A stretch of 64,000 nt of DNA from a virus. Both the position numbers and the translations under genes were made by a program. Each line of letters begins with the position of its first letter. The first letter of the stretch is position 1. Shown here piece by piece: positions 21,061 to 37,233 of this stretch. A model generated the notes under the pieces. That model was not told the DNA's origin and made no database searches. It saw only the letters and a list, made by a program, of their open reading frames with translations. Location of the stretch: positions 1 to 64,000 of the IMG/VR virus record IMGVR_UViG_3300031784_000026; one strand, written 5' to 3'.

Positions 21061-23400
21061 TTACCTACCCATTTTGGTAGCGGCTACACGCTGCATAGCA
21101 GTGTTAGCGCGGAGTTGAGCAATGTCTTCCATCGATTGGATCTTTTCTTTGTCCAATGCAGTCTTCGTCTGAAGCTTCTGGGCATCAAGAGCAATCCGGC
21201 TTTGGTCAGACTGAGCCTTCTGCTGAAGTTCCTGTGCCTTCAATTGCAGGTTCTGCTGCTGCAACTGCACAAGCGGGTCAGGACCTTGCTGAGGCATAAG
21301 CTGCTGCATCAACTGCTGAGTCATCATGGCTTCAATCTTGGCGACCTCGACTTCCATCTCTTGCGGCTGCAACATGACATTGATGCCCTGCTGCTGCATT
21401 TGGATGACAACCTGCTGCTGCGCTGCGAGAGACAGGTGCTCGAGGACGTGGGACATCAGCACGCCATACACTGCCGGTGACATTTGAATCAGCGGCGTGA
21501 GCATGAAAGTGATGTGGGTTTGGATGTGGGCCATGTGGTCCTGTTCCGGGAAAACCTTCAACGGTTGACCACCGGACGGGATTGTCAGGGACTTTGCATT
21601 CTCCAAGGCAGGGCTTTGCGGCATCGGCTGCGGAGGAGGGGGCAACACAAGGTCTACGTCGGTGACGCCCAGTGCCGAATACATCCGGCGATACGCCTCA
21701 TACATATTGTGCATCTGCGGCGCTTGCTGGGCGAGCTGCAATTGCTGTTGAGCCAGCGCAATACGCTGGGTCATCGAGAAGATATTGGGGTCGCTAACCG
21801 GAATAACGTCGATCTTGCCGTCAAAGTCTTGGGCCTTGACCGAAGCATCACCGCCTTGGACCTCGTACGGGTACACAGGCGGTAGATATTCAGCAAAAAT
21901 GTCCGCGAGTAGCTTCAATTCCTGCTTTTGAGCGAAGTGCATCCGTTTGTGGACCGCCGACATGACCCGGGAGCCACGTTCCAACAGGGCGATTGTAGTA
22001 CCGACCGGCAATTCTTGGTTGGACTCGCCCATTCCAAGGTCTGTCGTACCGATAAACTTCTCGGCTGCGCCAATACAGAAGCCTAAAAGCTGGAAAAGTG
22101 TGGCCGACGGCTCTTTATAGGGGAGCGGAAGCAGAGATTGCTGCAAATCGCCACCCGGAGCGTCAACATCTCGCCATTCCCCCGGCTGAATCGGGGTTTG
22201 ATCCTCGATTCTCAGTCCTCTTGCCTTAAATCCCGCAGGTAAATTCGCAAGAGTGCCAGCGTCAACCAACTGCCGAAGAATAGAGGTAGAGCTCCGACTG
22301 AGATTGCCCAAAAGATGAACGAGTCCAAATCCATAGAACCCCATTCCTGACAAGAATTTGTATTGAACAAAGAACTGCCTCTTCTTTTTGAGCGGATCAT
22401 CCTCACGCCAGTTGCGGCGGATGGACAAAATCTTACGGGAACCGGTGTCATAGGTCACAATGTAGGGGATTTGGAGACCTGTGACCTCTCCTTCCTCATC
22501 TTTGTCCTCGAAACCTTCGATATCGAGGTAACAATGACACTCGTGAAGCGTATATGAGTTAGGGTCATCTGGTTTTTCGATGCCCGTCGTCCGATCTACG
22601 CGCTCTTGAATCTCATCTTTGTCCCCTGCCGATGGCTTACCGAGGTCGATGTCGCGGTAAAAGCCGTTTACTTGCAGGCGCTTAAGTTCATTTGGAGAGT
22701 AGCTAAGCACGTGAGTGACCCGTTCAGCGGTCAAAAGATCACGAGCAGCATACGGAACGATCAAATCCTTGGGCAAAATGTAGGGACTGGTCGCCCGGCC
22801 AAGGTAATCGTCGTAGTAAACCTTCTTGAAAGCCGACCCACCGTACCCGACAAAGTACAACATCTGGTCGAAATCGGGGTCATATTCTTCCATGACCTCC
22901 GTAATCTGATAGTTCATGTAAGTTTTGATGCGATCTGCCTGTGCTTCACGCTCCGGTGTCACCTTTCCGATGATCTGTGTGCGTACCGGACCACCTGCTG
23001 GCAGCAATTCCTTGTAGGCCTGAGCCTGAAACTGGGTCACAGCCTCGTTGAGGATGGGGTGCGTAACACCCGTCGAACCCTCAAACGGCTCTGTGCGGTC
23101 TTCATAGTTGAGACCGAGCAAGACCATGCCCTGCTCGTAGATCTTTTTCCACTCGTCGCGGCTTCGATCATCTTCCGTGATCAGCTCGTCAAGGTCATCG
23201 ACGATTTTAAGTAGAAGGCGTTCATCCAAAACTTCGGCGAGGTTTGCGCCGAACGGGATGTCCATCTCGGCAACGTCCACGCTCTCTTGTTCTTCGACCT
23301 CTGCCTCATCCATCTCGGAGGAATCGTTCTGGTCCTTGAGGAGGTCTTCGATGTCTGAGTCGTCAGACTTTTCAATATTGTTGAACGGGGAAATAGCCAT
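21061..23400 (-). CDS. Portal protein
   Basis: A 779-residue protein; ATG 23400 shares a base with the terminase stop. The N-terminus is acidic. Residues 75-115 carry RSRDEWKKIYEQGMVLLGLNYEDRTEPFEGSTGV, then QAYKELLPAGGPVRT, a long middle with FLSGMGFYGFGLVHLLGNLSRSSTSIL, and a very Gln/Met-rich helical C-terminus (MMTQQLMQQLMPQQGPDP) like a portal barrel. Size and order after terminase match the P22/SU10-like portals of short-tailed phages. Twelve copies would form the DNA gate. Confidence 0.8.
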   Translation of the reverse strand: MAISPFNNIEKSDDSDIEDLLKDQNDSSEMDEAEVEEQESVDVAEMDIPFGANLAEVLDERLLLKIVDDLDELITEDDRSRDEWKKIYEQGMVLLGLNYEDRTEPFEGSTGVTHPILNEAVTQFQAQAYKELLPAGGPVRTQIIGKVTPEREAQADRIKTYMNYQITEVMEEYDPDFDQMLYFVGYGGSAFKKVYYDDYLGRATSPYILPKDLIVPYAARDLLTAERVTHVLSYSPNELKRLQVNGFYRDIDLGKPSAGDKDEIQERVDRTTGIEKPDDPNSYTLHECHCYLDIEGFEDKDEEGEVTGLQIPYIVTYDTGSRKILSIRRNWREDDPLKKKRQFFVQYKFLSGMGFYGFGLVHLLGNLSRSSTSILRQLVDAGTLANLPAGFKARGLRIEDQTPIQPGEWRDVDAPGGDLQQSLLPLPYKEPSATLFQLLGFCIGAAEKFIGTTDLGMGESNQELPVGTTIALLERGSRVMSAVHKRMHFAQKQELKLLADIFAEYLPPVYPYEVQGGDASVKAQDFDGKIDVIPVSDPNIFSMTQRIALAQQQLQLAQQAPQMHNMYEAYRRMYSALGVTDVDLVLPPPPQPMPQSPALENAKSLTIPSGGQPLKVFPEQDHMAHIQTHITFMLTPLIQMSPAVYGVLMSHVLEHLSLAAQQQVVIQMQQQGINVMLQPQEMEVEVAKIEAMMTQQLMQQLMPQQGPDPLVQLQQQNLQLKAQELQQKAQSDQSRIALDAQKLQTKTALDKEKIQSMEDIAQLRANTAMQRVAATKMGR

Positions 23401-24863
23401 CAATAATAAATCCTTCTGCCGACCTTCGTCTCACCTTCTATCACAAGATCTTCCGGATGCGACAGGAATCCTCCCTGCCGAAACCGCATCAACGCTTGTG
23501 TGGCGGCGTCACAGTGGTCGTCATGTTCTCCAAATGGAAATGCGGCCATCTCTTCGATGACCTCTTCGGCCCAGCTCGTTTCAGGATACCACACCAAACC
23601 TGCCTCGAATAGGGGGGCCACGGAGTTCATTCTGACGTGTTTATCATTTCCCCGGCTTGGAGAAAAGTTCACGACCGGGATGCCCGTTGCCCGGAGTTCC
23701 TGTGTCAAAGGATGACCGGCAGCCTTCGCTTCGATCAAGACCGTTTCCGGATCCCAGTACTTATACTCGTCGTGGGCAATCTTCTTCAGTTCCGGAAACT
23801 CCCACCGACCCTTCTTGGCATCAAGGAGGATCACGTTCGGCGGTCCACCTTCCGAAGGATAGAAGACGCCCCATGTCTGGATCGCGCTAAAGTCAGCCGT
23901 CCGGGTTTTAAGGAACGCCGTGTCGTAGCTTTGCATTACATACTGCAAAGGCGGGATGCTTCCCTTCTTCCAAGGTTTCCACCAGTCGCGCTTGATGATC
24001 GCCGCCGTATCCGAGGTCGGCGTCTGCATATACTGCGCGTTCCACTGGGTGAGCGGAATCGAAGCTTTGACGCGCTCCAACTCCTCGATCTTCCAGTATT
24101 GCGGCCACAAAGGTTTGCCGCTCGGAAGAATCGCCGGAAACTCAATGACTTCCCACTGATCAGCCTTCGGGTCATTCGCCGACTGACGCAGCAAGCGAGC
24201 CGTCAGGTCGTTCTCACCCCACCGGGTCATGACTAGGATAATAGTACCGCCCGGCTGTAACCGTTGTCTCGGACCCGAACTATACCACTCCCACGCGTTT
24301 TCCAGCGCAGTCGGTGACATTGCATCTTGTTCTGAATGAGGATCATCAACGATAAATAAGTCTGCGCCACGTCCTGCGATGGATCCCCCCACACCGGCTG
24401 CGTAATATTCTCCACCATCATCTGTCTCCCACCGGTATGCAGCCTTACTGTCAGACCTGAGCTTTGTTTGAAAGATCTTCTTATACTCCTCAGACTCCAT
24501 CAGGTTCTTAACCTTGCGACCAAACCTCACAGACAAATCTGCTGTATGCGTCGCCTGCATAATCTTCAAATGCGGATTCCTACCAATCATCCACGCCGGA
24601 AACAGATAGCTCGCAAACTCGGATTTCGTATGACGCGGAGGGAGATTAATGATTACCCGCTTCAGCTCGCCGCGAGCGATAGCCTCAAACTTCTCCGCAA
24701 TATCTCGATGATGCTTGCCAGCAATGAAGCTCGGCCACACGAGTTTCACAAACTCCAGAAACTCTTTGCGAGCCAAAGCTGTTGTATCAATGACCCCGAG
24801 ACGTTCGCCTAACTGATAGGCCCGAACCATAATCTCTTGAGGTAATTTCTCTTCATCGGTCAT
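23400..24863 (-). CDS. terL: Terminase large subunit
   Basis: A 487-residue packaging motor. Features are HHRDIAEKFEAIARGELKRVIINLPPRHTKSEFAS (Walker A-like PPRHTKS), LKIMQATHTADLSVRFGRKV, Walker B-like ADLFIVDDPHSEQDA, and a C-terminal nuclease domain beginning MQSYDTAFLKTRTADFSAIQ with acidic YDTAF. It pumps DNA into the procapsid and cuts the concatemer. The small subunit is separate, at 29933-30526. A leftward promoter candidate lies just upstream. Confidence 0.9.
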   Translation of the reverse strand: MTDEEKLPQEIMVRAYQLGERLGVIDTTALARKEFLEFVKLVWPSFIAGKHHRDIAEKFEAIARGELKRVIINLPPRHTKSEFASYLFPAWMIGRNPHLKIMQATHTADLSVRFGRKVKNLMESEEYKKIFQTKLRSDSKAAYRWETDDGGEYYAAGVGGSIAGRGADLFIVDDPHSEQDAMSPTALENAWEWYSSGPRQRLQPGGTIILVMTRWGENDLTARLLRQSANDPKADQWEVIEFPAILPSGKPLWPQYWKIEELERVKASIPLTQWNAQYMQTPTSDTAAIIKRDWWKPWKKGSIPPLQYVMQSYDTAFLKTRTADFSAIQTWGVFYPSEGGPPNVILLDAKKGRWEFPELKKIAHDEYKYWDPETVLIEAKAAGHPLTQELRATGIPVVNFSPSRGNDKHVRMNSVAPLFEAGLVWYPETSWAEEVIEEMAAFPFGEHDDHCDAATQALMRFRQGGFLSHPEDLVIEGETKVGRRIYY

Positions 24864-24889
24864 TCGCTATTTCCATCAAGCACTTAGGT

Positions 24890-24917
24890 ATGATATCACA
24901 AAAGAGATAAATGTCAG
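24890..24917 (-). promoter_or_regulatory. Candidate leftward promoter for terL and the head operon
   Basis: On the minus strand CTGACA (24917-24912) and TATCAT (24895-24890) are separated by 16 bases, upstream of the terminase start at 24863. It is a plausible sigma70-type promoter for the late block. The -35 box overlaps a GTCAGAGGACA motif of the kind scattered over the early region. Confidence 0.45.
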
Positions 24918-24930
24918 AGGACAAAGGATA

Positions 24931-25413
24931 ATGGGCGATCAACCCCTAGACCTATATGACATCGCGTGGTTCTTCTCAAAAGTAGACGTTAAAGACAAAC
25001 GAGACTGCTGGGAGTTCAGAGGACACAAGGCCGTTGGCGGATATGGGAGCGTAACGATCCGAGGCCAACATTACTACACCCACCGATTATCATACGAGAT
25101 ATTCTGCGGGGAGATCCCCAAAGATCTGGTCATCCGGCACATGTGCGATAACGCCGCGTGCTGTAACCCCTGCCATCTGACCACTGGCACTCAAAGAGAT
25201 AACGTCGTCGACCGGATGATCCGTGGCCGCTCTGCCGTCGGATCCCGGAACGGGCGATCCAAGCTTACAGAAGACGAGGTCCGGCAAATCCTCGATGACC
25301 CGAGATCAGCCCCGGCAACTGCAAAGGCATATGGTGTAGGCAAGGATACCATCCTCCGTATACGCAGAGGGCAGTCTTGGGCGCACGTTACTTCGGACGA
25401 CGTCGCAAAATAG
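24931..25413 (+). CDS. HNH homing endonuclease-like protein
   Basis: A 160-residue protein with ribosome site AAAGGAT just before ATG. Residues 48-90 hold the HNH_3-type core: YYTHRLSYEIFCGEIP, then RHMCDNAACCNPCHLTTGTQRDN (His51, His70, Cys72, Cys77, Asn79, His82). Residues 109-150 (SKLTEDEVRQIL...YGVGKDTILRIRRGQSW) form a helix-turn-helix DNA-binding tail. Free-standing HNH enzymes of this type are mobile in phages. It is rightward, opposite to terL and to the gene at 25388-25654, whose end it overlaps by 26 bases. Confidence 0.85.
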   Translation: MGDQPLDLYDIAWFFSKVDVKDKRDCWEFRGHKAVGGYGSVTIRGQHYYTHRLSYEIFCGEIPKDLVIRHMCDNAACCNPCHLTTGTQRDNVVDRMIRGRSAVGSRNGRSKLTEDEVRQILDDPRSAPATAKAYGVGKDTILRIRRGQSWAHVTSDDVAK

Positions 25414-25654
25414 CTTTGTTGGTTCTTGGGTCATAGACGTATTCGGCCTTTGATCTTCCCGATGCAGAAGCCGCGCGATCTATCGCCCGCTCCTGTGCCG
25501 TCATCCGGTTGCGCCGCTCGCCCGCTGCCGTCAAAGTCCCGTCGTCATTCATGTGACCACGGCTCTTCAAGATTTGCTCGGCCTTCTCCCGCGACCCTAA
25601 CTGCGCTGACAGGCGGTCTACGAGTTGATGTCGCCCCATAAATTTCATCGTCAT
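25388..25654 (-). CDS. Conserved small phage protein
   Basis: An 88-residue basic helical protein, MTMKFMGRHQLVDRLSAQLG, with KAEQILKSRGHMNDDGTLTAAG and RTNKAILRRRPK. A Shine-Dalgarno GAGGC lies eight bases upstream. I recognise the motif SREKAEQILKSRGHM from many phages but know of no function. It is last in a leftward operon 26401 to 25388 and is convergent with the HNH gene. Confidence 0.7.
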   Translation of the reverse strand: MTMKFMGRHQLVDRLSAQLGSREKAEQILKSRGHMNDDGTLTAAGERRNRMTAQERAIDRAASASGRSKAEYVYDPRTNKAILRRRPK

Positions 25655-25666
25655 GGGTATGCCTCA

Positions 25667-25690
25667 TTGGTAGATATCTTGGTAGATATC
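25667..25690. repeat. Perfect tandem 12-bp repeat
   Basis: TTGGTAGATATC occurs twice in immediate succession. Each unit contains the palindrome GATATC. The repeat fills the short gap between two leftward genes and its end touches the stop codon at 25689. It could be an operator or a slippage product. Confidence 0.8.
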
Positions 25691-25964
25691 AAAAGAGCTT
25701 GATCTCGTCCATGATCAGAGGACAACCGTCAAATGACGTTTGACAGTTGTAGCCGATAAACTCGGAAGCTTCGTCCTCTGTCATCCCGTCTCTTACCATA
25801 AGCACATCGATCATCTTATCGAAAGAATATATCACCCGAAGGCTGTTATTTATCTCGGTCGTACCAATGATCGCGTCATCGAAACCATCCATAAGGACGG
25901 CTGTCATACCGAAGTGTTCTGCGAATTCAGCTACTGCTTCACGGAGGGGATGGGGCTCTGTCAT
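25689..25964 (-). CDS. Small acidic phage protein
   Basis: A 91-residue protein starting MTEPHPLREAVAEFAEHFG at 25964. The start is supported by GAGGA upstream and an ATGA overlap with the preceding stop; an in-frame codon at 26003 lies inside that gene. It contains DAIIGTTEINNSLRVIYSFDKMIDVLMVRDGMTEDEASEFIGY. The C-terminal part EDEASEFI-Y-- resembles a family of small phage proteins of unknown function. It is acidic and soluble. Confidence 0.65.
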   Translation of the reverse strand: MTEPHPLREAVAEFAEHFGMTAVLMDGFDDAIIGTTEINNSLRVIYSFDKMIDVLMVRDGMTEDEASEFIGYNCQTSFDGCPLIMDEIKLF

Positions 25965-26401
25965 GATATCCTCTGAAATTTGTCCATTGAAATAAGGCAA
26001 CACGGTTCGATGTCCTGATCATCCCCGCGATCCTTCCGACCGGCAATGGTCAGAGGATAGAGGGGAAAGGATTCCACAGCTTTAACAGTGTGCATATAGA
26101 TCCCGTCTGTCAGCTTGAGCGCCAACACAAAGGCTATACGAAACTGGTCATGCCACTTCTGGGCTTCCAAGATCTTGTGGGCAGAGATAATCACGCCCCC
26201 AAAAGAGTCGAGCTTGTCGTACGAGTAATTACGGCATTTGATCTCTGCGATAGCCACAACGGTCTTGTCGCGGCACAAGGCGTAATCCAAGGCAAAGTAG
26301 TTCTTTAGCTTGTGGACATCGACGCCCCACTTCTCACCGATGACCTTTGCCACCGAAGCTTCGTTGTCCAGATCCTGTTGGGTTTCATATGTCGGGCGCA
26401 C
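25961..26401 (-). CDS. PD-(D/E)XK nuclease-like protein
   Basis: A 146-residue protein with a GTG start at 26401 preceded by AGAGGA. The core FALDYALCRDKTVVAIAEIK gives the pattern Asp39-x13-Glu53-Ile-Lys55, preceded by a helix with Glu14, as in restriction-endonuclease-like folds. The following GGVIISAHKILEAQKWHD helix also fits. Likely a small DNA nuclease or resolvase acting on phage or host DNA. It is first gene of a three-gene leftward operon. Confidence 0.65.
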   Translation of the reverse strand: MRPTYETQQDLDNEASVAKVIGEKWGVDVHKLKNYFALDYALCRDKTVVAIAEIKCRNYSYDKLDSFGGVIISAHKILEAQKWHDQFRIAFVLALKLTDGIYMHTVKAVESFPLYPLTIAGRKDRGDDQDIEPCCLISMDKFQRIS

Positions 26402-26664
26402 TCTGTCCTCTTTTTATTATACCCCGGGCCGCCGGGGGACCCTATGAACAGACCGTAAAAAGGGGGTCGGGGTCAATATCAAAAGTTTTATTTCCATATA
26501 ACTTTCCGTGAAAAATCGTGTTTTTAGTCGAGTGCGTGCGATGGCAGGGGTCAATTAGGGGGGTCTGGGGTCAACGGTTCGGTCGAAAGCGGATCTGGAT
26601 TCTTGGAAAGGGACCCGCGTCGGGGATAGGTCAGCATTGTTGACCTGATGCGCGACAGGCGAGG

Positions 26665-26691
26665 TATGCGCCAGACGCATGGCAGGTATGC
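26665..26691 (+). promoter_or_regulatory. 27-bp activator/operator-like element, copy 1
   Basis: The element begins TATGCGCCAGACGCAT, with inverted arms ATGCG/CGCAT, and continues GGCAGGTATGC. It matches the copy at 31251-31277 at 24 of 27 positions. In both cases the element starts exactly 38 bases before the first base of the -35 box. A partial extra copy of the right part (GGCGAGGTATGC) lies at 26657-26668. Identical spacing suggests a bound regulator touching RNA polymerase. Confidence 0.7.
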
Positions 26692-26702
26692 ATAAATAGT
26701 TA

Positions 26703-26731
26703 TTGACTATCCTTTGACTATGTGTTAGTCT
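26703..26731 (+). promoter_or_regulatory. Rightward sigma70-like promoter P1
   Basis: TTGACT (26703-26708) and TAGTCT (26726-26731) with 17 bases between. A second TTGACT starts 11 bases after the first. The promoter drives the first early gene at 26789. Confidence 0.65.
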
Positions 26732-26735
26732 TCTG

Positions 26736-26761
26736 GTGTTAGATCGATGGTGGTCTAACAC
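26736..26761 (+). promoter_or_regulatory. Leader hairpin after P1
   Basis: GTGTTAG (26736-26742) pairs with CTAACAC (26755-26761) across a 12-base loop, right at the expected 5' end of the P1 transcript. A GGCTGTTTT stretch follows. It may stabilise the mRNA, attenuate transcription, or be a DNA operator. Confidence 0.55.
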
Positions 26762-26788
26762 GGCTGTTTTACATTGTGGAGAAATACT

Positions 26789-27139
26789 ATGAACAGCGAT
26801 AACATCACGCGCGTCGCGCATGACCTTAGCAGACTGCTTGACGAAATGCTTTACGAGATCCGGAAAACAGAGCTTCTGGCAAAGAGCCTAGAGGATCGGA
26901 TCAGGGAGCTAGAGCTGAAGGCGGAGGTTTTATCCTTGGCGGATCGCAAGGGATATAACATGACGGACCTTGGAAACATGGTCGATGAGATATCGAAGGA
27001 AGGTCTGCTCGACGACTACATCAACGAGCGGATCTCAGATCATCCCGACGTCGCAAGCGAAGACAGTATTCGCGAGTGGGCGCGAGACGAAGCTCAAGAG
27101 GTCTTGAGTAACGCGAGCTTCGAGATCACGGTTAACTAA
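26789..27139 (+). CDS. Early coiled-coil protein of unknown function
   Basis: A 116-residue acidic protein, MNSDNITRVAHDLSRLLDEM, helical throughout, with a heptad-like stretch LYEIRKTELLAKSLEDRIRELELKAEVLS and an acidic end rich in Asp and Glu. GGAG lies upstream of the ATG. As the first gene behind P1 it should be expressed very early, when phages make host-takeover proteins; that role is inference. No family recognised. Confidence 0.65.
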   Translation: MNSDNITRVAHDLSRLLDEMLYEIRKTELLAKSLEDRIRELELKAEVLSLADRKGYNMTDLGNMVDEISKEGLLDDYINERISDHPDVASEDSIREWARDEAQEVLSNASFEITVN

Positions 27140-27148
27140 TAAAAGAAA

Positions 27149-27176
27149 GGGGAGAGAAATCTCCCCTTGACTTTTT
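27149..27176 (+). terminator. Intrinsic terminator fused to next promoter
   Basis: GGGGAG and CTCCCC pair across AGAAAT (27149-27166), followed by TTGACTTTTT. The U-tract of this terminator is at the same time the -35 box of the next promoter. Confidence 0.7.
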
Positions 27177-27194
27177 CTTTATAGTTGATAGATT
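27167..27194 (+). promoter_or_regulatory. Rightward sigma70-like promoter P2
   Basis: TTGACT (27167-27172) and TAGATT (27189-27194), spacer 16. It begins one base after the preceding terminator stem and serves the gene at 27226. Confidence 0.55.
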
Positions 27195-27225
27195 GATATT
27201 GTCCCAAAGCAGAGGAGAAAGTGCA

Positions 27226-27423
27226 ATGGACACATTCACGGCGATCAGCCTGATCGAAGGTCTTGAAGAAGCAGAAGAATTCGAGATCATCGAAGCTTGG
27301 CAATACCTGATCGACACCGGCATTGTCTGGAGCTTGCAGGGTTTCTACGGTCGCATGGCACGGGATCTTATTGAGACCGGCGTATGCTACCTCAACAATA
27401 GCGAAGAAGAAATCGCAGTCTAA
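27226..27423 (+). CDS. Small acidic early protein
   Basis: A 65-residue protein, MDTFTAISLIEGLEEAEEFE, then IIEAWQYLIDTGIVWSLQGFYGRMARDLIE. The start follows AGGAGAAAGTGCA. The segment AWQYLIDTGIVWSLQGFYGR-A--LIE is typical of a widespread small phage protein of unknown function. It forms a single-gene unit between promoter P2 and the terminator at 27429. Confidence 0.75.
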   Translation: MDTFTAISLIEGLEEAEEFEIIEAWQYLIDTGIVWSLQGFYGRMARDLIETGVCYLNNSEEEIAV

Positions 27424-27428
27424 TTGAG

Positions 27429-27454
27429 AGCGGGGGCGCAAGCTCCCGCTTTTT
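27429..27454 (+). terminator. Intrinsic terminator
   Basis: AGCGGGGGC pairs with GCTCCCGCT (one G-U pair) across a GCAA tetraloop, followed by TTTTTC. It closes the 27226-27423 unit. Confidence 0.85.
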
Positions 27455-27509
27455 CTTTGTCCTTAATCAATCAATGTCCTATTAGGACTTTACCGGCGCG
27501 AGGCGAATT

Positions 27510-27683
27510 ATGATTACTAAAGCACAACAACAGGCGATACTGAGGGTTTACTTGCGAGATACCACAGAAGCGCAGTCTTATTTGCAATTCCGTCGCAGGA
27601 TAGTGCGAGGGTTTGATTGTCTTATGCTCCCTTGGAAAGGCATGTGGCTTGGGATCGAACTTGACGGTTACACCCACAGTTAA
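27510..27683 (+). CDS. Conserved small phage protein, PWKGMWLGIE type
   Basis: A 57-residue protein, MITKAQQQAILRVYLRDTTE, then AQSYLQFRRR, a FDCLMLPWKGMWLGIE block and DGYTHS. This sequence pattern is widely conserved in phages of Gram-negative bacteria, with no known function. The ribosome site GAGGCG abuts the first ACTTTACCGGCG repeat, and the TAA stop is one base from the second. It has no promoter of its own that I can see. Confidence 0.8.
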   Translation: MITKAQQQAILRVYLRDTTEAQSYLQFRRRIVRGFDCLMLPWKGMWLGIELDGYTHS

Positions 27684-27711
27684 GACTTTACCGGCGCATT
27701 GAGACTTTACC

Positions 27712-27732
27712 GGCGTGACTTCTCCACACGCC
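27712..27732 (+). repeat. Hairpin with TTCTCCACA loop, copy 1
   Basis: GGCGTG pairs with CACGCC around a loop that includes TTCTCCACA (27720-27728). The 5' arm is the end of the repeat at 27704. The same loop sequence appears in the hairpins at 28090 and 28325. Confidence 0.65.
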
Positions 27733-27735
27733 CCT

Positions 27736-27770
27736 GCCCCTCGCAAATTTATTTTTGCGGGGGGCTTTTT
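27736..27770 (+). terminator. Intrinsic terminator
   Basis: GCCCC-T-CGCAAA pairs with TTTGCG-G-GGGGC and is followed by TTTTT. It lies directly before promoter P3. Confidence 0.85.
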
Positions 27771-27775
27771 ATTTG

Positions 27776-27804
27776 TTGACTTTTATTTGACTTGCTCCTA
27801 TATT
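27776..27804 (+). promoter_or_regulatory. Rightward sigma70 promoter P3
   Basis: TTGACT (27776-27781), 17-base spacer, TATATT (27799-27804). A second TTGACT begins 11 bases downstream of the first. The upstream 27 bases, starting TTTTATTTGTTGACTTTTAT, recur at promoter P4. Confidence 0.75.
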
Positions 27805-27836
27805 GATCTGGTAACGCAAACAAAGGGAGAAAGCCT

Positions 27837-28070
27837 ATGCGTTCTATTTCCACTATCGCTCGTGAAATCCGCGCAGACTGGACTAAGCCTTACTTTGGCG
27901 CAGTCCCTTACTTAAGCGCAATGCAGTCCCTCGATAGCATTGAGGATAACTATTATGAGGATAGCGGCAAATCCGTTGTGCTCTACTTTCTCGCGAACGC
28001 GCAGACTTGGAAAGGCGAGAAAGCCCGTTCGATAAAGGCTGAGCTAAAGAAGCTCTGCGGTATCAAATAA
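27837..28070 (+). CDS. Conserved small phage protein, IAREIRADW type
   Basis: A 77-residue protein, MRSISTIAREIRADWTKPYF, then GAVPYLSAMQSL, a YYEDSGKSVVLYFLANAQTW block and KAELKKLCGIK. I recognise the pattern from many phages. It is helical with a conserved Trp-Arg-Gly/Lys-Gly turn, and no activity is known. GGGAGAAAG precedes the ATG. It forms a monocistronic cassette between P3 and the terminator at 28090. Confidence 0.8.
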   Translation: MRSISTIAREIRADWTKPYFGAVPYLSAMQSLDSIEDNYYEDSGKSVVLYFLANAQTWKGEKARSIKAELKKLCGIK

Positions 28071-28089
28071 GATTAGCACTTTACCGGCG

Positions 28090-28121
28090 CGGGCCCGCTT
28101 CTCCACAGGCGGGCCCGTTTT
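28090..28121 (+). terminator. Intrinsic terminator with TTCTCCACA loop, copy 2
   Basis: CGGGCCCGC pairs with GCGGGCCCG around TTCTCCACAG, followed by TTTT. The 5' arm continues the repeat at 28078. It is almost identical to the terminator at 28325. Confidence 0.85.
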
Positions 28122-28142
28122 CTTATGACAAGGAGAAAGTAT

Positions 28143-28292
28143 ATGGACATTGCCGAAGCCCTAGAGATTGTAATTAATCTTGCCCGTCAAAACATACCGT
28201 CAGATCCCGAACTAGAGGAGCTTGCCGCTCGTTACGCCGAAGCCTGCAACGTGGTCGAGGATATGGCAGTCAATCAATTCAGCGAAGATTAG
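28143..28292 (+). CDS. Small acidic phage protein
   Basis: A 49-residue protein, MDIAEALEIVINLARQNIPS, then DPELEELAARYAEACNVVED and MAVNQFSED. A strong site AGGAGAAAG precedes the ATG. The combination LARQNI--DPEL...VVEDM-VN-F is a recurrent tiny phage family of unknown function. The stop codon is one base from the repeat at 28294. Confidence 0.75.
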   Translation: MDIAEALEIVINLARQNIPSDPELEELAARYAEACNVVEDMAVNQFSED

Positions 28293-28324
28293 AACTTTAC
28301 CGGCGCAGTCGGACTTTACCGGCG

Positions 28325-28357
28325 CGGGCCCGCTTCTCCACAGGCGGGCCCGTTTTT
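28325..28357 (+). terminator. Intrinsic terminator with TTCTCCACA loop, copy 3
   Basis: CGGGCCCGC / GCGGGCCCG stem with the same loop as copy 2, followed by TTTTT. It starts inside the repeat at 28313 and is followed by promoter P4. Confidence 0.85.
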
Positions 28358-28362
28358 ATTTG

Positions 28363-28390
28363 TTGACTTTTATTTGACTTCTGTTATTCT
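28363..28390 (+). promoter_or_regulatory. Rightward sigma70-like promoter P4
   Basis: TTGACT (28363-28368), 16-base spacer, TATTCT (28385-28390), with a second TTGACT 11 bases after the first. It is a near copy of P3. Confidence 0.65.
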
Positions 28391-28421
28391 TGGCGGGTCA
28401 ATTCCACAGAAAGGGGATATC

Positions 28422-29069
28422 ATGACAACTCTCAAAGAAGCGCAAAGCGCAGGCAAGATATCAATAGGTAATACAAAAATGCCGGGCTCTACCTTCGCAG
28501 TCTCGGCAAAGCACTGCAACGTAGGCGGCAAGCTTGCCGATCTAGAGGGGTCGGTTTGTTATGAATGTTATGCCCTAAGGCTTCAAAATTTCCGGCCTAC
28601 CGTCAACGCCGGATGGACGGGCAACCTAGACAAGGCAAACCGCATGATCAAAACCGATCCGGCGCGATGGGTCGCCTACATCACCTTCCAAATCAATAAA
28701 GCTTACGAGAAAACCGGCGAACCATATCACCGTTGGTTTGACAGTGGAGACTTGCAATCTGTCGAGATGCTAGAGGCGATATGCGAGGTCGCACGGGCTA
28801 CGCCCCAGATCCGCCATTGGCTCCCGACGCGTGAGACAAAAATCATTAATGACTTTACCGGCTCGATCCCAGACAACCTAATCGTGCGGGTCTCGAGCCC
28901 GATGATCGACGACAAGCCAATCAATAAATACATATGGACTAGCACGGTCCACAAGAACAGTGAACCGGTCGGACATATTTGTCCGGCCCGTCATCAAGGA
29001 AACGCGTGCGGCTCTTGCCGTGCCTGTTGGTCAGATGACATCCGAAACATCTCCTACCCCCTCCACTAG
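28422..29069 (+). CDS. Gene product 88-like protein (GP88 family)
   Basis: A 215-residue protein starting MTTLKEAQSAGKISIGNTKM after GGGGAT. Cysteine-rich segments include SAKHCNVGG, GSVCYECYALRLQNF, and a C-terminal CPARHQGNACGSCRACW cluster. Between lie WVAYITFQIN, YHRWFDSGDLQS and HWLPTRETKI. This is the layout of the phage GP88 family, first named in mycobacteriophages; the cysteines suggest a metal or Fe-S site. Its biochemical role is unknown to me. It is driven by promoter P4. Confidence 0.75.
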   Translation: MTTLKEAQSAGKISIGNTKMPGSTFAVSAKHCNVGGKLADLEGSVCYECYALRLQNFRPTVNAGWTGNLDKANRMIKTDPARWVAYITFQINKAYEKTGEPYHRWFDSGDLQSVEMLEAICEVARATPQIRHWLPTRETKIINDFTGSIPDNLIVRVSSPMIDDKPINKYIWTSTVHKNSEPVGHICPARHQGNACGSCRACWSDDIRNISYPLH

Positions 29070-29075
29070 GGGGTA
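29055..29075 (+). terminator. Hairpin at the end of the GP88-like gene
   Basis: TACCCCC pairs with GGGGGTA across seven bases that contain the stop codon. The following CTCTTCTTTGCTT is only moderately T-rich, so it is a weak terminator or a 3'-end stabiliser. Confidence 0.55.
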
Positions 29076-29113
29076 GCTCTTCTTTGCTTATTGATACTTT
29101 ACCGGCGTGCGTG

Positions 29114-29521
29114 CTACTTTACCGGCGCGACGTGGATGCCTCCCTTTTGTCCGTCGCCAACTGCCCACGGTTGAGCGCATGCGCTCCCGTGGGTCTTTTT
29201 CCAGAATGTTTCCCGTGAAAAGTTATGACAAGATAAATGACATGACCGGCACAGCCAGAGAACATCTGTCGGTCTACCATAATCCTCATGGTGCATCTCG
29301 GCGTCTGTACCGGCGCACACGAAACAATACTGGGCGTCAAGCTTTCCGCGTCTCTTGTAGACGTTGGCATGAGATCGAGCCTTCACCTTTTTCTTTTGCT
29401 CGTCTGAGAGATCCCCGTAAGGGGTTCGATGCTCGCGCATATATGCGGCATGGCAGGCCTTACAGTATCTCTGCCCGTGCCGGTCGTTTTCATTCCCGCA
29501 TTTTGAGCATGTCGTTTTCAT
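29114..29521 (-). CDS. HNH-like zinc-finger protein
   Basis: A 135-residue protein starting MKTTCSKCGNENDRHGQRYC at 29521, with GGAG upstream. Two zinc knuckles come first (CSKC, CKAC), then a basic linker, then CFVCAGTDAEMHHEDYGRPTDVLWLCRSCHLSCHN. HHEDYxxPxDVxWLCRxCH is the core of a very common phage HNH-like family. A nicking or DNA-binding function is likely but untested. Its last codons (APVK and stop) are encoded by the repeat at 29116. Confidence 0.75.
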   Translation of the reverse strand: MKTTCSKCGNENDRHGQRYCKACHAAYMREHRTPYGDLSDEQKKKVKARSHANVYKRRGKLDAQYCFVCAGTDAEMHHEDYGRPTDVLWLCRSCHLSCHNFSRETFWKKTHGSACAQPWAVGDGQKGGIHVAPVK

Positions 29522-29592
29522 GGGTCGCTCCGTGGAACATGTGGAACATTTTCCTAACACGCATTTGTTCCACGGTAAAGTGTTTTAAGACT

Positions 29593-30006
29593 TTACCGGC
29601 GCAGGGCAATGAGCCGTGATTCAAGGAAATCGAGCAAGGTCTGCCACTTTACCGGCGCGGATAACACTAAATCTGGGGTAATTTCAGGGTTTTCCACTAG
29701 ATCTAGTAGCTTTGAGCATGAAAAAATTTCTACAACCTCTGCCCGTGGACGGCTGACCAAGTTGAACACGTTAGGAAAAAATGCCGCTCTCCTTGTTTGC
29801 CAAGCAATTTGGGCGGGACGCCACAAAGAGACCGGTTGGATCGCCTTGCGAGATTCTACCTTGTTTTCGAGCCAAAATTCGCCGAAAGGGGCGGCTCCGT
29901 TGACGTCTGGTATTCCGACGCCTGCCCACGCCTCAACCCTTGTCCAATGGATCGTCTCCGTCGCTTTCTTCAAGGACTGATACATCTTCTTCTCGGTTTG
30001 GAACAA
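29593..30006 (-). CDS. PD-(D/E)XK (VRR-NUC/resolvase-like) nuclease
   Basis: A 137-residue protein with GIPDVNGAAPFGEFWLENKV: Asp34, Glu47 and Lys49 give the D-x12-E-x-K core. WRPAQIAWQTRRAAFF follows, matching the Q-x-W helix of VRR-NUC/Holliday-junction nucleases. It probably resolves branched DNA before packaging. The start overlaps terS by 74 bases; a later Met at 29985 is possible. The repeat at 29590 contains its stop, and the repeat at 29646 lies within its coding frame. Confidence 0.7.
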   Translation of the reverse strand: MFQTEKKMYQSLKKATETIHWTRVEAWAGVGIPDVNGAAPFGEFWLENKVESRKAIQPVSLWRPAQIAWQTRRAAFFPNVFNLVSRPRAEVVEIFSCSKLLDLVENPEITPDLVLSAPVKWQTLLDFLESRLIALRR

Positions 30007-30526
30007 GGTCGATCTCCTTCGGGGGAAGCATCGCCTGCTTCAATGCAGGGTATTGCTCATGCAGTTTCTGAAGCTCGGCGAGCACCTCTTCACGGGACAT
30101 CTGGTCGATCTTGCCCACAAGGATTTCAGAGCGGCTGATGTAGAGGCCTGCCGCCATGCCGCGTTGCTTCTCTGCCGCGACAGCAGGGCCAAGGGCCTTC
30201 TGTTCAATGGCGAGATCACGGATGCGAGCCAGTTGGGTGATGTGGCTCTCGTAGGTAACCTCATGCTGTTTGGCGAGGCTTTTCTCAAGCTCACGGATCC
30301 GGTCGATGACTTTGGGAAAGTCGCGACCGTTCATAAAACGAGAGGCCACGACAGCGGCGTCTTGATAGCCCGCCTTCTCTGCGGCTTCTGTCTGAGTCAT
30401 GAAGCCGAAGACGAAGTTGCGGCAAAAGTCCTCCTGCATCTGGGTCAGGCCCGACTCAAGCTTCGTCAGCTTAGTCTTGGGAGGGGCGACAGCCTTCACA
30501 TAGTGGGTCTGCTTGCGATCCTTCAC
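29933..30526 (-). CDS. terS: Terminase small subunit
   Basis: A 197-residue protein with a GTG start. Residues 25-70 (LTQMQEDFCRNFVFGFMTQTEAAEKAGYQDAAVVASRFMNG) form the Terminase_2-type helix-turn-helix for recognising the packaging site. Residues 75-130 are a helical oligomerisation region (VIDRIRELEKSLAKQHEVTYE), and the C-terminus is acidic. It selects phage DNA and stimulates terL, which lies 5 kb away behind unrelated genes. It ends inside the downstream nuclease gene. Confidence 0.85.
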   Translation of the reverse strand: MKDRKQTHYVKAVAPPKTKLTKLESGLTQMQEDFCRNFVFGFMTQTEAAEKAGYQDAAVVASRFMNGRDFPKVIDRIRELEKSLAKQHEVTYESHITQLARIRDLAIEQKALGPAVAAEKQRGMAAGLYISRSEILVGKIDQMSREEVLAELQKLHEQYPALKQAMLPPKEIDLVPNREEDVSVLEESDGDDPLDKG

Positions 30527-31028
30527 GATGTTCTCTTTCTGTTCTGAATTTCCCAGTAAGGCATTCTAGCCAAAGAAAAATTTTATTTCCACAGAGAAAA
30601 ATCCTGTCCACATGCGCGGGGGGAACTTATTTGGTCTATCACATTTTATGATAGCTTCCTGTAAAAAAGATAGCATATTCTCTTGTATTATCAATGGGTT
30701 ATCAATTCTATCATTTCTATCATGCCGAATCCACCTTTTGTGTGTCCAAAAATTTTTTAACGCCGCGCGCGCGCAGATTCAGTTTGGAAAAACACACTTT
30801 TTTAAAATCGACGATATTTATGATAGAAGTGATAAGGTATTTGAAATCATTCATCTTTTCCCTATCAAAGTTAACAACAAATTAGATAGACCTCACTTCC
30901 CTTATAGGCAGTTTGTCAAAGGACAGAGGACCTCTAACCACCCACCACTAACCACCCCCGCCAACAATTCCCCTCGATTTATTGGCGGCCCCCAGTTACA
31001 ATCTGACCACTGCAATAGGAGGCCTGCC
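30527..31028. other. AT-rich non-coding region with TATCA/TGATA iterons (candidate origin)
   Basis: A 500-base gap without a credible gene. Between 30636 and 30890 at least nine YTATCA or TGATAR hexamers occur. The tandem run TTATCA, TTATCA, CTATCA, CTATCA starts at 30688, 30699, 30708 and 30717, and TGATAG/TGATAA at 30821/30830 has the same nine-base step. CTATCA (30636) and TGATAG (30649) form an inverted repeat. Two DnaA-box-like sites, ATTTCCACA and CTGTCCACA, lie near 30590-30612. The features fit a melting or initiation region. Confidence 0.6.
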
Positions 31029-31217
31029 ATGACCGATCCCAAGATCTTCACCGTCTACAACCTCGTGACCTATGTGATGGAAGTAGAGGCCGCCAACGAG
31101 GACGAAGCCTTGGAGATGGCCCGCTTCTCGGACGAGAGCGAGTGGGAATTCGTGGGCGAGGACTTCGACGTGGACGACAACGCAGGCAACGAGGACGAAT
31201 TCGAACTCCCGTTCTGA
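31029..31217 (+). CDS. Small acidic protein
   Basis: A 62-residue protein starting MTDPKIFTVYNLVTYVMEVE with AGGAGG upstream. Longer in-frame readings from 30612 run through the non-coding region and are rejected. NEDEALEMAR and a very acidic end (EDFDVDDNAGNEDEFELPF) resemble the small phage family with an alpha-beta ASP-like start and EDEA-E-A motif. Function unknown; DNA mimicry is conceivable from the charge. Confidence 0.65.
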   Translation: MTDPKIFTVYNLVTYVMEVEAANEDEALEMARFSDESEWEFVGEDFDVDDNAGNEDEFELPF

Positions 31218-31250
31218 CTGCCCAACACCTTAAATCTTTGTAGGCACACC

Positions 31251-31277
31251 CATGCGCCGGTCGCATGGCAGGTATGC
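31251..31277 (+). promoter_or_regulatory. 27-bp activator/operator-like element, copy 2
   Basis: It begins CATGCGCCGGTCGCAT and continues GGCAGGTATGC. It equals copy 1 (26665-26691) except at three positions and has the same 11-base distance to the following -35 box. Confidence 0.7.
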
Positions 31278-31288
31278 GCTTGTGTGCG

Positions 31289-31316
31289 TTGATCCTTTGT
31301 AAACAATCTATATCTT
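31289..31316 (+). promoter_or_regulatory. Rightward promoter P5
   Basis: TTGATC (31289-31294), 16-base spacer, TATCTT (31311-31316), 37 bases before the gene at 31353. It should transcribe the long run of small early genes. Confidence 0.6.
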
Positions 31317-31352
31317 GCACCCTGTTGATTTGTTCAAAGAAAGGAACATCAC

Positions 31353-31604
31353 ATGGAAATGGCAATGCACCACGAATACAACCTGACCACCAAAGACGGT
31401 CTGATCTTGGGGGTCTGGAACGAGAAGAAAACCCCGTCCCACCTCGACTACTACATTGGCCCGTTCGAGTCAGAAGAGCAGGCCAAGCAATATGCCGACG
31501 ACTACACCGAGTCGTGGCGCTTGGGCTACAACGGACGTGGTCGGGCGGTAAAGCTCAACCATTCCTTCTACGTCGCCTGCACCCGTTGGACATCGTGTGA
31601 CTGA
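31353..31604 (+). CDS. Small protein of unknown function
   Basis: An 83-residue protein, MEMAMHHEYNLTTKDGLILG, then an alpha-beta unit GPFESEEQAKQYADDYTESW and RAVKLNHSFYVACTRW. GAAAGGAAC lies upstream. It is the first gene behind P5. No family recognised. Confidence 0.65.
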   Translation: MEMAMHHEYNLTTKDGLILGVWNEKKTPSHLDYYIGPFESEEQAKQYADDYTESWRLGYNGRGRAVKLNHSFYVACTRWTSCD

Positions 31605-31614
31605 GGAGGAACCC

Positions 31615-31956
31615 ATGAACATTGAGCAACGCACAGGGATCGAGCGGAAGATCGTCAGCATGGTCATCGATGCCGCCTTCGAGCGTGGCTTCGGTATCTG
31701 GATCGACAATGGCGGGAACGACGACGAGATCATCTACTGTGGCACACCGGAAGAAGCCAAGGCTCAGATCATGCAGACCGACGAGGAGTATATCCACCTG
31801 TACAAGGCAGAGAACGACCTAAAGATTGGTTACGGGTGGGTCTGGTGTGTCTATGGCAATGACGGTTTCGACGTGATCGCCGATCACTCGACCTTCACCG
31901 TCATCGACGAGATCATGAACCCCATCAACGACCTGATCGAGAAAGGACAGATCTGA
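31615..31956 (+). CDS. Small acidic early protein
   Basis: A 113-residue protein, MNIEQRTGIERKIVSMVIDA, after GAGGAGGAACCC. It contains FGIWIDNGGNDDEIIYCGTPEEAKAQIMQTDEEY and GYGWVWCVYGNDGFDVIADHS. The pattern sVdnGge---------AmF-tDEe-L resembles a phage family in which a short alpha-beta domain ends in NDL-EK. No activity known. It overlaps the next ATG by one base. Confidence 0.65.
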   Translation: MNIEQRTGIERKIVSMVIDAAFERGFGIWIDNGGNDDEIIYCGTPEEAKAQIMQTDEEYIHLYKAENDLKIGYGWVWCVYGNDGFDVIADHSTFTVIDEIMNPINDLIEKGQI

Positions 31957-32117
31957 TGGCCCAGTATTTGGTAACCCTCGCCTCCTACAAGTCCATTCTT
32001 GTGGAGGCTGAGGGGGAGATGTCTGCGCGGGAAGTTGCAGGCAAGATCCCAGAGACGGAATGGCAAGAGGACGAGCTTCTTTTGTTCGTTGAACCTTATG
32101 ACCCCGAAGAGGAGTGA
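31956..32117 (+). CDS. Very small acidic protein
   Basis: A 53-residue protein, MAQYLVTLASYKSILVEAEG, then EMSAREVAGKIPETEWQEDE and LLLFVEPYDPEEE. The ATG overlaps the previous stop (TGATG), and the next gene starts four bases on. Coupled position and compact reading frame support it as real. Function unknown. Confidence 0.6.
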   Translation: MAQYLVTLASYKSILVEAEGEMSAREVAGKIPETEWQEDELLLFVEPYDPEEE

Positions 32118-32121
32118 CCCC

Positions 32122-32361
32122 ATGTCACGCGAGATCCACGTTTTTAGTGCCGTTTGTTACACAAACTACGTTGACGCCAAGGAGTCGGGGGGCATCTATG
32201 CCTACGACGTCAGCCACGCAGACGACTCGGACAATTTGAGAAAGGGCCTGCTCTACGAGGCGATTCTCGCCATGCAGACCGCCTTGTCCTGTGTCGGACA
32301 TATGGGCGACCTGTCTTTCGCGTTGGTCGAAGACGGCAAGATCATAGACTACTGGCGATAG
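32122..32361 (+). CDS. Small protein of unknown function
   Basis: A 79-residue protein, MSREIHVFSAVCYTNYVDAK, with IYAYDVSHADDSDNLRKGLLYEAILAMQTALSCV and a FALVEDGKIIDYWR end. GAGGAGTGACCCC precedes it, giving the same spacing as the neighbouring GAGGAACCC sites. No family recognised. Confidence 0.6.
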   Translation: MSREIHVFSAVCYTNYVDAKESGGIYAYDVSHADDSDNLRKGLLYEAILAMQTALSCVGHMGDLSFALVEDGKIIDYWR

Positions 32362-32370
32362 GAGGAACCC

Positions 32371-32550
32371 ATGAAGATCAAATACATCTGCACCCGTTGC
32401 AAGTCTGACCGCGTCGGGCAGGACGCCTTCTGCGATTGGAATGTCGAAAAACAAACGTGGGAGATCGCCAACTTCACAGGCGAGGCCTTCTGCCACGATT
32501 GCTCTGACAACACAGAGCTTGTGGAAGTCCAGATCGAACCGGAGAACTGA
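32371..32550 (+). CDS. Small zinc-finger protein
   Basis: A 59-residue protein, MKIKYICTRCKSDRVGQDAF, with CTRC near residue 7 and CHDC near residue 41, consistent with one zinc site, flanked by an acidic end. AGGAGGAACCC precedes the ATG. It belongs to a recurrent phage type (I/V-C--C-S--V--DA---W). Nucleic-acid or protein binding is inferred. Confidence 0.65.
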   Translation: MKIKYICTRCKSDRVGQDAFCDWNVEKQTWEIANFTGEAFCHDCSDNTELVEVQIEPEN

Positions 32551-32551
32551 C

Positions 32552-32812
32552 ATGATCTTTACTGTTGGACAATTGCGTGAATCCTTGAAGGACTTGGCTG
32601 ATTGGGCGGAAGTCTACGTTTGGGATGACGGAGACCGCCATGTGATTGAATCCGTGGACAAACTGCATGTAGGCCATGTTGATTTGAATATATGCCACGT
32701 TGATCTTAACGCGAGGTCAAACTCTACGGATGAAATTAACCGGTTGCGGGAAGAACTCCATGAGCTGAGAATAACAATGGGGTTCATCCGCAAGCTTTCA
32801 GAGGACGCCTGA
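32552..32812 (+). CDS. Small protein with C-terminal coiled coil
   Basis: An 86-residue protein, MIFTVGQLRESLKDLADWAE, followed by VYVWDDGDRHVIESVD. The first half is a short beta-domain seen in other phage proteins (TVGxLxxxLxDxxDxxEVxVW). The second half is a leucine-rich coil EINRLREELHELRITM. It begins right after the previous stop. Function unknown. Confidence 0.6.
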   Translation: MIFTVGQLRESLKDLADWAEVYVWDDGDRHVIESVDKLHVGHVDLNICHVDLNARSNSTDEINRLREELHELRITMGFIRKLSEDA

Positions 32813-32813
32813 G

Positions 32814-33143
32814 ATGCCAAAAGCCTATTGCGTGACCGGTTTAGAACGCCCTGTATGGGTCTCGAGCGAAGTCAAGGCCCGACAGATGATAAAGGACAGA
32901 GGTCAGGGAACAGTCATCCCTTTTGATATTCCAACCAGATTGTCGGACCTACTTGACTGGCTCAACACCCTTGATCTCACAAATCCTGTGGCCTCAGATA
33001 AACCACCAGTTGACAGAGGACAACAGAAAGTAGACACTGCGTCGTGGCCTGACGATATTATTGATTTACAAAAGCGTGTAATCGAACGACTACAGGAGCA
33101 GTTGGACCTGTTCCAAAGCCATGAACCTAAGAAAGGGAAGTAA
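32814..33143 (+). CDS. Protein of unknown function with C-terminal coil
   Basis: A 109-residue protein, MPKAYCVTGLERPVWVSSEV, then KARQMIKDRGQGTVIPFDIP and TRLSDLLDWLNTL. The C-terminal helix KRVIERLQEQLDLFQ is a coiled coil. The coding sequence includes two of the dispersed GGACAGAGG-like motifs (32891, 33010). The stop overlaps the next start. Confidence 0.6.
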   Translation: MPKAYCVTGLERPVWVSSEVKARQMIKDRGQGTVIPFDIPTRLSDLLDWLNTLDLTNPVASDKPPVDRGQQKVDTASWPDDIIDLQKRVIERLQEQLDLFQSHEPKKGK

Positions 33144-33328
33144 TGGAAGAGCTTAAAGAGATTGCGGTGATCGTTGTCAGCACATGGGCGGCGGTCGAAG
33201 TCCTCAAACAATTTATTCGTGCTTGGGAAAACTACTACACCGATTGGTATCGCAGAGAATACAGCAACCTTACAGACGTCATCGAACAGATAACGAAGTC
33301 AGAACTTCCAAAGAAAGGGGCGAAGTAA
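33143..33328 (+). CDS. Small amphipathic protein
   Basis: A 61-residue protein, MEELKEIAVIVVSTWAAVEV, whose residues 5-25 are hydrophobic enough for a membrane anchor. A charged helical remainder with NYYTDWYRREY follows. Start overlaps the preceding stop. No family recognised. Confidence 0.55.
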   Translation: MEELKEIAVIVVSTWAAVEVLKQFIRAWENYYTDWYRREYSNLTDVIEQITKSELPKKGAK

Positions 33329-33329
33329 T

Positions 33330-33560
33330 ATGGACAAGTATCAAGCTACAAATTTCCTCGTGTCTCGTAGCCTTGAGGTCAGCGCGTTGTGTCTGACGTC
33401 TGCTGACAAGGCTTTCCTGAGCATTGTGTTGGATGGGTATCGTGTGGAGATGGAGCGTGCGCTTGCAGATCCCTCGATGCCTTCCCGCACTCGCGAATTC
33501 ATCTTGAAAGAAGTCGCAGACTCAAAGCGTTTATCCAAGCTGATGGTAGGTGACCAATGA
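33330..33560 (+). CDS. Small helical protein
   Basis: A 76-residue protein, MDKYQATNFLVSRSLEVSAL, with DKAFLSIVLDGYRVEMERALADPSMP and a basic tail. GGGGCGAAG precedes the start. It overlaps the next gene by four bases. Function unknown. Confidence 0.55.
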   Translation: MDKYQATNFLVSRSLEVSALCLTSADKAFLSIVLDGYRVEMERALADPSMPSRTREFILKEVADSKRLSKLMVGDQ

Positions 33561-33796
33561 CAGAGGACAGAAGCAAATCAAGAAAGCTTCTCGATAAGCT
33601 TGCCGATCTCATGAACGGCTATCTTAATGAGGCAACGACCGATGAAGAGAGGGAGGCCGCAATTGCTACGGGTCTTCAGACTCTTGTGAATTTCGCGATC
33701 CTGTCGTCTTGCACGGCAGGTCTTACAGAAGACGAGATGCACGATGTCGTGCATGAGATTTACTCGATGTACAATGAAGGTAGAGCAGATGACTAA
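33557..33796 (+). CDS. Small acidic helical protein
   Basis: A 79-residue protein, MTEDRSKSRKLLDKLADLMN, with YLNEATTDEEREAAIATGLQTLVNFAI and an acidic tail LTEDEMHDVVHEIYSM. Start and stop overlap neighbours. One copy of the dispersed ACAGAGGACAG motif encodes its first residues. Function unknown. Confidence 0.55.
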   Translation: MTEDRSKSRKLLDKLADLMNGYLNEATTDEEREAAIATGLQTLVNFAILSSCTAGLTEDEMHDVVHEIYSMYNEGRADD

Positions 33797-37211: not shown

Positions 37212-37233
37212 ATCTCTTAGAAAGGAAAGAGAC

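Follow-up and report, generated by a model that had tools for sequence, protein, structure and literature searches.

Genes of the islet

The window, i.e. the whole stretch of DNA analysed here, is 64,000 bases long and represents positions 1–64,000 of a 67,011-base record. The islet described below lies between the TerL gene (23400–24863, PHROG 38) and the TerS gene (29933–30526, PHROG 51). The TerL protein shares 62.8% identity with its counterpart in Pelagibacter phage HTVC027P and 61.2% with that in phage DSL-LC04, and the DNA comes from an uncultivated relative of HTVC023P-type phages; a megablast search of named phages with positions 24000–34000 gave zero matches.

On the + strand, the row begins with a small gene without a predicted function (26789–27139), whose homologues in the related loci L006, L066 and L005 are 36–40% identical, followed by a gene encoding a DUF7417 protein (27226–27423; PF24192, 38.3 bits, cut-off 27) and a small gene (27510–27683) that is 82–84% identical in several relatives. 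A PHROG 13953 gene (27837–28070, E 1.6e-28) precedes an orphan gene (28143–28292), found only in the window phage among the phages compared, and the row is completed by a GP88-family gene (28422–29069; PF17338, 71.5 bits, cut-off 24.4), for which relatives were found. The following minus-strand gene (29593–30006) is called as a member of a DNA helicase family by PHROGs; we take it to encode a VRR-NUC nuclease.

Terminators and promoters

Strong hairpins, defined as stems of at least 8 pairs with at least 5 G-C pairs, were sought across the whole window, and seven distinct ones were found. Six of the seven fall within the islet of approximately 2 kb, on the + strand (27147–29076), and the seventh lies on the minus strand at 14353. 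The scanned islet hairpins fold better than nearly all of their shuffles (z −3.1 to −4.3). They include the five intrinsic terminators that a first-pass annotation had placed at 27149, 27429, 27736, 28090 and 28325, each recovered as a + strand hairpin with a T-tract (27147–27168, 27426–27453, 27736–27765, 28089–28118 and 28324–28353; z −3.5 to −4.3), as well as a hairpin resembling a terminator where the GP88 gene ends (29054–29076). A second strong hairpin with a T-tract is found 3′ of the GP88 gene (29163–29194, + strand; z −3.4 against shuffles), and its long loop kept it from being picked up by the scan. The first terminator is merged with the −35 box of the next promoter; that its U-tract runs straight into TTGACT had been pointed out before, and this fusion at 27147 is kept in L011 and L015. 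Terminator-promoter joints are retained in relatives.

Promoter-like sites were likewise found where they had been claimed, at 27167–27194 (TTGACT-16-TAGATT), 27776–27804 (TTGACT-17-TATATT) and 28363–28390 (TTGACT-16-TATTCT), all on the + strand and all recurring in L011 and L015; in the latter two, TTGAC is repeated 11 bp apart. The number of promoter-like sequences does not exceed that of shuffles in any scanned segment of the window. The three promoters are credible on three grounds: they occupy equivalent positions in L011 and L015; the sequence surrounding the −35 box hardly varies, whereas the −10 region drifts; and TTGAC-N6-TTGAC is in excess, with three exact copies in 64 kb vs 0.17 expected (at 26703, 27776 and 28363, each preceding an islet gene). 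At 26703 this motif is preceded by an operator-like element upstream of gene 26789 (26677–26718, + strand), in which GCATGGCAGGTATGC at 26677–26691 is followed by TTGACTATCCTTTGAC at 26703–26718. The 15-mer GCATGGCAGGTATGC is an imperfect palindrome with an exact second copy at 31263–31277, before the rightward early genes. With up to three mismatches it shows no excess (3 matches vs 1.6 by chance), and it is possible that the two exact copies constitute a common operator.

With three promoters, two of which carry the 11-bp repeat at −35, and strong terminators, short transcripts are to be expected. The description of the locus as a row of single-gene units was not confirmed, as gene 27510–27683 had been overlooked and neither this gene nor gene 28143 has a promoter recognised by the scan. 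By the moron criterion of an own promoter plus terminator, five islet genes show a terminator in five cases and a promoter-like site in three. The GP88 homologue of HTVC027P is gp33, and in the available part of an RNA sequencing report on that phage, this gene and the adjacent gp34 make up a temporal expression cluster of their own (PMC12753301). This separate timing fits independent units in a relative.

An oriented 12-bp repeat at gene ends

The 12-mer ACTTTACCGGCG is present in ten exact copies, all on the + strand and all within 27487–29657, and was found neither elsewhere in the 67,011-base record nor in reverse; the first-pass annotation had not noted it. Allowing up to one mismatch gives 11 matches vs 0.23 expected, a number reached by none of 100 shuffles. 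A Chi-like or genome-wide function was rejected since all copies are confined to 2.2 kb. When the paired-site pattern was searched for in bacterial genomes, five stretches were found in taxonomically scattered records, which does not point to any host carrying arrays of this type.

Site 1 (27487–27498) lies 11 nt from the next start codon, and sites 2 and 3 (27685–27715, 19 bp apart) are located 1 and 20 nt past a stop codon. Site 4 and the terminator following it make up the left copy of a 44-bp repeat (28078–28121), and site 6, again followed by a terminator, belongs to the right copy (28313–28356); site 5 is found at 28294–28305. Sites 7 and 8 (29096–29127) are 20 bp apart. Sites 9 and 10 (29590–29657) are located where the minus-strand gene has its 3′ end, which shows that the array does not follow + strand gene ends throughout. 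Of the ten copies, eight are positioned 1–63 nt past a + strand stop codon. Three pairs have spacings of 19, 19 and 20 bp, and seven copies contain no coding sequence, the non-coding share of the islet being 570 of 1974 bases.

The sites were compared to the orthologous places in L011 and L015 and found to be identical at 96/96 and 60/60 positions, vs 201/256 and 99/160 for their flanks, a comparison that favours the sites in that the pairs were picked as exact in both genomes and the flanks partly hold neighbouring sites; a pair in coding sequence at 28852 was excluded from the count. A decayed site, ACATGACCGGCAC (29237–29250), adjoins a degenerate parS; L015 and L016 have both elements in intact or almost intact form.

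Gain, loss and reshuffling of single genes

Gene 28143 is flanked by the two 44-bp copies of site and terminator, which are identical at 44 of 44 positions, and deleting one 235-bp unit yields the arrangement of L011 save for a 19-bp site-plus-spacer difference. The gene is absent from L011, L015, L016 and L008, and no relative was confirmed among 20 pattern matches in viral contigs. One different extra gene each is found in L016 and L015, surrounded by its own spacer copies (23/23 and 24/26 identical, respectively), and L008 has a 229-bp terminator/sites/promoter module on either side of a two-gene unit (172/229 identical). The order of genes 27510 and 27837 varies, with 27510 coming first in the window and L011 and second in L008 and L037. 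The gene content of the relatives, the copied spacers and the changed order of gene 27510 support the earlier proposal that single cassettes can be gained or lost.

Single-gene presence and absence, a criterion used for morons, is seen for gene 28143 when compared to L011 and for the extra genes of L015 and L016. Unlike morons, the islet is a whole row with copied spacers, and gene 28143, which is clearly inserted, has no recognised promoter. Integron-like cassettes were rejected after a PF00589 profile search for an integrase found none. We favour, at about even confidence, the view that the locus is an accessory islet made up of short units of transcription, that it carries stoperator-like oriented sites and that its copied spacers would exchange single genes.

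Repeats at the same place in related phages

A wider form of the site, ACTTNNCCGGCGC, was found in 36 copies in six of the seven records searched, in one direction per record, with no opposed copies and none in the reversed control. Among 69 loci examined of the 80 in which TerL was found, ACTTNNCCGGCGC lies upstream of TerL in seven and never occurs on the other strand or elsewhere in the locus. Other relatives have different repeats in the TerL-TerS interval, such as the word TTGCATCWAAGGMCCGCGC in L056 and L064, a 16-bp tandem unit in L061 and a 14-bp unit in L047. HTVC027P and DSL-LC04 encode arrays of 7-bp repeats between terL and terS (GCTTGNN and CCACGGC-like; L018:8500–8636, L018:9397–9447 and L019:9547–9833). 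In HTVC027P the repeats overlap the terminal part of a gene that resembles a nuclease gene.

A strand-biased repeat score of at least 9 was obtained for 14 of 27 TerL-TerS regions, with every shuffle scoring 8 or less (20 shuffles per region); as the 27 include regions from closely related phages and some repeats may be coding, these do not amount to 14 independent cases. Little or nothing beyond shuffles was seen in L028, L034, L035, L053, L054, L069, L071, L077, L080 and L092. The shuffle control covers the 27 regions, whereas a listing of the best repeats over 34 loci was made without a control, and the word listed for L046 lies largely within coding sequence as judged by eye. A 12.8-kb fragment, L102, has the gene trio of the islet together with its own 36-nt repeat, present in four copies within the corresponding spacers; a related terminase was not found on this fragment. 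Such repeats are absent near the GP88 gene of Roseobacter phage CRP-113, which is 60% identical, and the available portions of PMC9599517 and PMC10149686 do not mention repeats of this sort for HTVC023P-type phages. A literature search on direct repeats between pelagiphage genes turned up a single paper, which deals with Actinomarinales.

Repeats of this kind could also arise without any protein partner, if the intergenic DNA of an islet with gene turnover were homogenised by duplication and gene conversion. Whole spacer modules are indeed copied within a genome, as seen from the 44/44 match in the window and the 229-bp module in L008, and distant relatives carry quite different repeats, some of them tandem. 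Homogenisation would however have to account for ten exact 12-mers in the islet with just one at a single mismatch, for a 12-mer that is invariant where its flanks differ and for repeats that are always on the same strand, and we regard this explanation as rather unlikely.

Candidate DNA-binding proteins and parS sequences

A candidate regulator is encoded at 33783–34178 (+ strand), a predicted OmpR-like winged helix protein with a weak Pfam match (E 0.035). Its model (pLDDT 83) was matched by Foldseek to several response-regulator DNA-binding domains with a probability of 0.89–0.99, none with an E below 0.07; since the Foldseek E is not significant and the assignment rests on a motif, we hold the OmpR-like fold with moderate confidence. 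Relatives of the protein occur in seven of 20 records; six of these belong to the two GC-rich site types, and the seventh (L054) has no array above chance. An RNA polymerase alpha C-terminal-domain-like protein is encoded by a further gene (37138–37680; 54.9 bits, cut-off 23.8), with homologues in four of 20 records. For the 7-bp repeats, an RHH_1 regulator was found in none of 12 records searched; a 67-aa ORF in L102 appears ribbon-helix-helix-like by eye.

The second candidate regulator (34175–34699, + strand) resembles a DnaA C-terminal domain, with a score below the family cut-off, and a search of solved structures gave a chance match only. Its presence suggests that the array might be part of a replication origin, in which the repeats would serve as iterons or boxes for this DnaA-like initiator. 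The oriented short repeats are found near the switch in gene direction, and the L016 variant ACTTATCCGGCGC has TTATCC in common with the DnaA box. However, the helix of the DnaA-like protein hardly differs between lineages whose site types are different, and a search of 20 records, including several fragments, gave no homologue in 11. The sites moreover track gene ends across 2.2 kb rather than being clustered. We regard an origin as improbable.

TerS itself was also considered, as the sites could be pac sites for the small-terminase ring encoded next door. The array is flanked by terS and terL, both in the window phage and in those relatives whose loci reach the two genes. Where the GC-rich sites are related, in two lineages, the C-terminal part of the TerS helix-turn-helix reads [AG]S[RK]F[LM]NGR[DT]; it differs in several other lineages. 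Covariation of TerS with site type is nevertheless doubtful because L054 has a similar helix and an array not above shuffles, and descent would equally explain the pattern. In L102 the repeats are surrounded by the same genes although no matching terminase was found on the 12.8 kb, and ten sites across 2.2 kb would be wide for a pac site. We give a pac function little credence. No site-binding protein was identified; the covariation of TerS and the winged helix protein with site type gave no clear answer.

The degenerate parS-like palindrome of the window, TGTTTCCCGTGAAAAG (29207–29222, + strand), aligns with intact parS of relatives. The chromosomal parS consensus, TGTTTCACGTGAAACA, was found with at most one mismatch in 16 of the 85 family loci examined, e.g. 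at L015:4986, L016:10804, L027:9717, L028:4294, L034:3834 and L035:9718, whereas exact copies are expected approximately 0.0003 times in 1.3 Mb. In the relatives it lies beside the array or approximately 300 bp before TerL, and at least 120 stretches with exact TGTTTCACGTGAAACA were found in viral contigs. A parS within a phage-encoded ParABS system was rejected, as the record of the window phage gave no match to ParB_N. Array and parS together could still form a partition element or recruit the ParB of the host, given that parS is found beside the array in several of the 16 loci. This is highly improbable, considering that the parS of the window is degenerate, that a ParB gene was not found in the record and that L008-type loci have the array and lack parS.

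Proposed role of the islet and comparison with known systems

If the locus is indeed an accessory islet with stoperator-like sites, its short + strand genes would be read as separate units, with host-type promoters starting three of them and strong intrinsic terminators ending the units. The ten 12-bp putative sites would probably be bound by a lineage-specific protein marking the boundaries of the units. Such a protein might act in a stoperator-like manner, either by blocking stray transcription in a polar fashion or by repressing the promoter that follows, and recombination among the terminator/sites/promoter spacers, which are copies of each other, would add or remove single genes. Many sites come after a terminator or separate it from a promoter, and two are located within a gene on the minus strand, which makes a role at the DNA level likelier than one at the RNA level. 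Counting against a stoperator-like role, a lysogeny repressor would have no obvious use in a phage in which an integrase was not found.

A broader combination can be envisaged, in which a phage protein would read oriented sites behind stop codons as polar boundaries, the words (12-mer, 16-mer, 14-mer and heptads) would be swapped wholesale between sister phages with their positions kept, and the adjoining parS would draw host ParB in part of the clade. We consider this combination a long shot.

As far as the literature was searched, the islet is a variant of known dispersed-repeat arrangements. The available parts of two reports describe the stoperators of the Cluster A phages L5 and TipsytheTRex as asymmetric 12–13-bp sites in many copies, located in short intergenic spaces and oriented with transcription, with a consensus that varies among related phages (PMC9283540, PMC6550527). 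Like these, the islet sites are asymmetric, with ten exact copies and none reversed, and are mostly intergenic, with eight of ten shortly behind a + strand gene and the remaining two in a minus-strand gene. In contrast to the stoperators of L5, which occur genome-wide and also in promoters, the islet sites are restricted to one 2.2-kb stretch. The L5 stoperators have a known repressor, whereas the OmpR-like protein is only a candidate for the islet sites, and unlike L5, the window phage yielded no integrase (PF00589).

The SAS of Cluster K, as described in the accessible part of PMC3203893, is a 13-bp asymmetric repeat of 11–19 copies in a single orientation that is confined to part of the genome and has no known function. 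The islet repeat is similarly short, asymmetric, one-directional and confined to part of the genome, but SAS copies lie 3–7 bp before start codons whereas the islet sites are mostly just past stop codons, with only site 1 near a start. For Cluster O (Corndog), the consulted part of PMC4351075 reports 17-bp repeats in many intergenic copies and proposes that recombination between them adds or removes a single gene. The islet copies are also intergenic and tied to single-gene gain and loss; the Cluster O repeats are however palindromic, without orientation and genome-wide, and the islet sites differ on all three counts. Finally, tandem 7-bp repeats overlap promoters in the omega/parS system of pSM19035, according to the portion of PMC9499535 at hand. 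These heptads resemble the arrays of HTVC027P and DSL-LC04, in contrast to the sites of the window, which are 12 bp long and dispersed.

Among those found, the described oriented short phage repeats (Clusters A and K) come from mycobacteriophages, and a similar arrangement is now seen, tied to gene ends, in an aquatic phage clade with HTVC027P and DSL-LC04 as cultured members. As sister lineages have different words in the same place, what reads the words can be tested by word swaps. The islet also supplies concrete cases of single-gene gain at copied spacers.

The first-pass annotation had further regarded monocistronic packaging as unusual in a phage. This was not borne out, as L109 and L106 display promoter-like repeats gene by gene. 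These two phage contigs (L109:8718–15559 and L106:2318–14102) are unrelated and carry a PHROG 13953 gene; their promoter-like elements are strongly conserved, with 10 copies and none antisense in L109 and 18 copies with three antisense in L106. Each element of L109 is preceded, as seen by eye, by a CRP-like palindrome (TGTGA-N6-TCACA).
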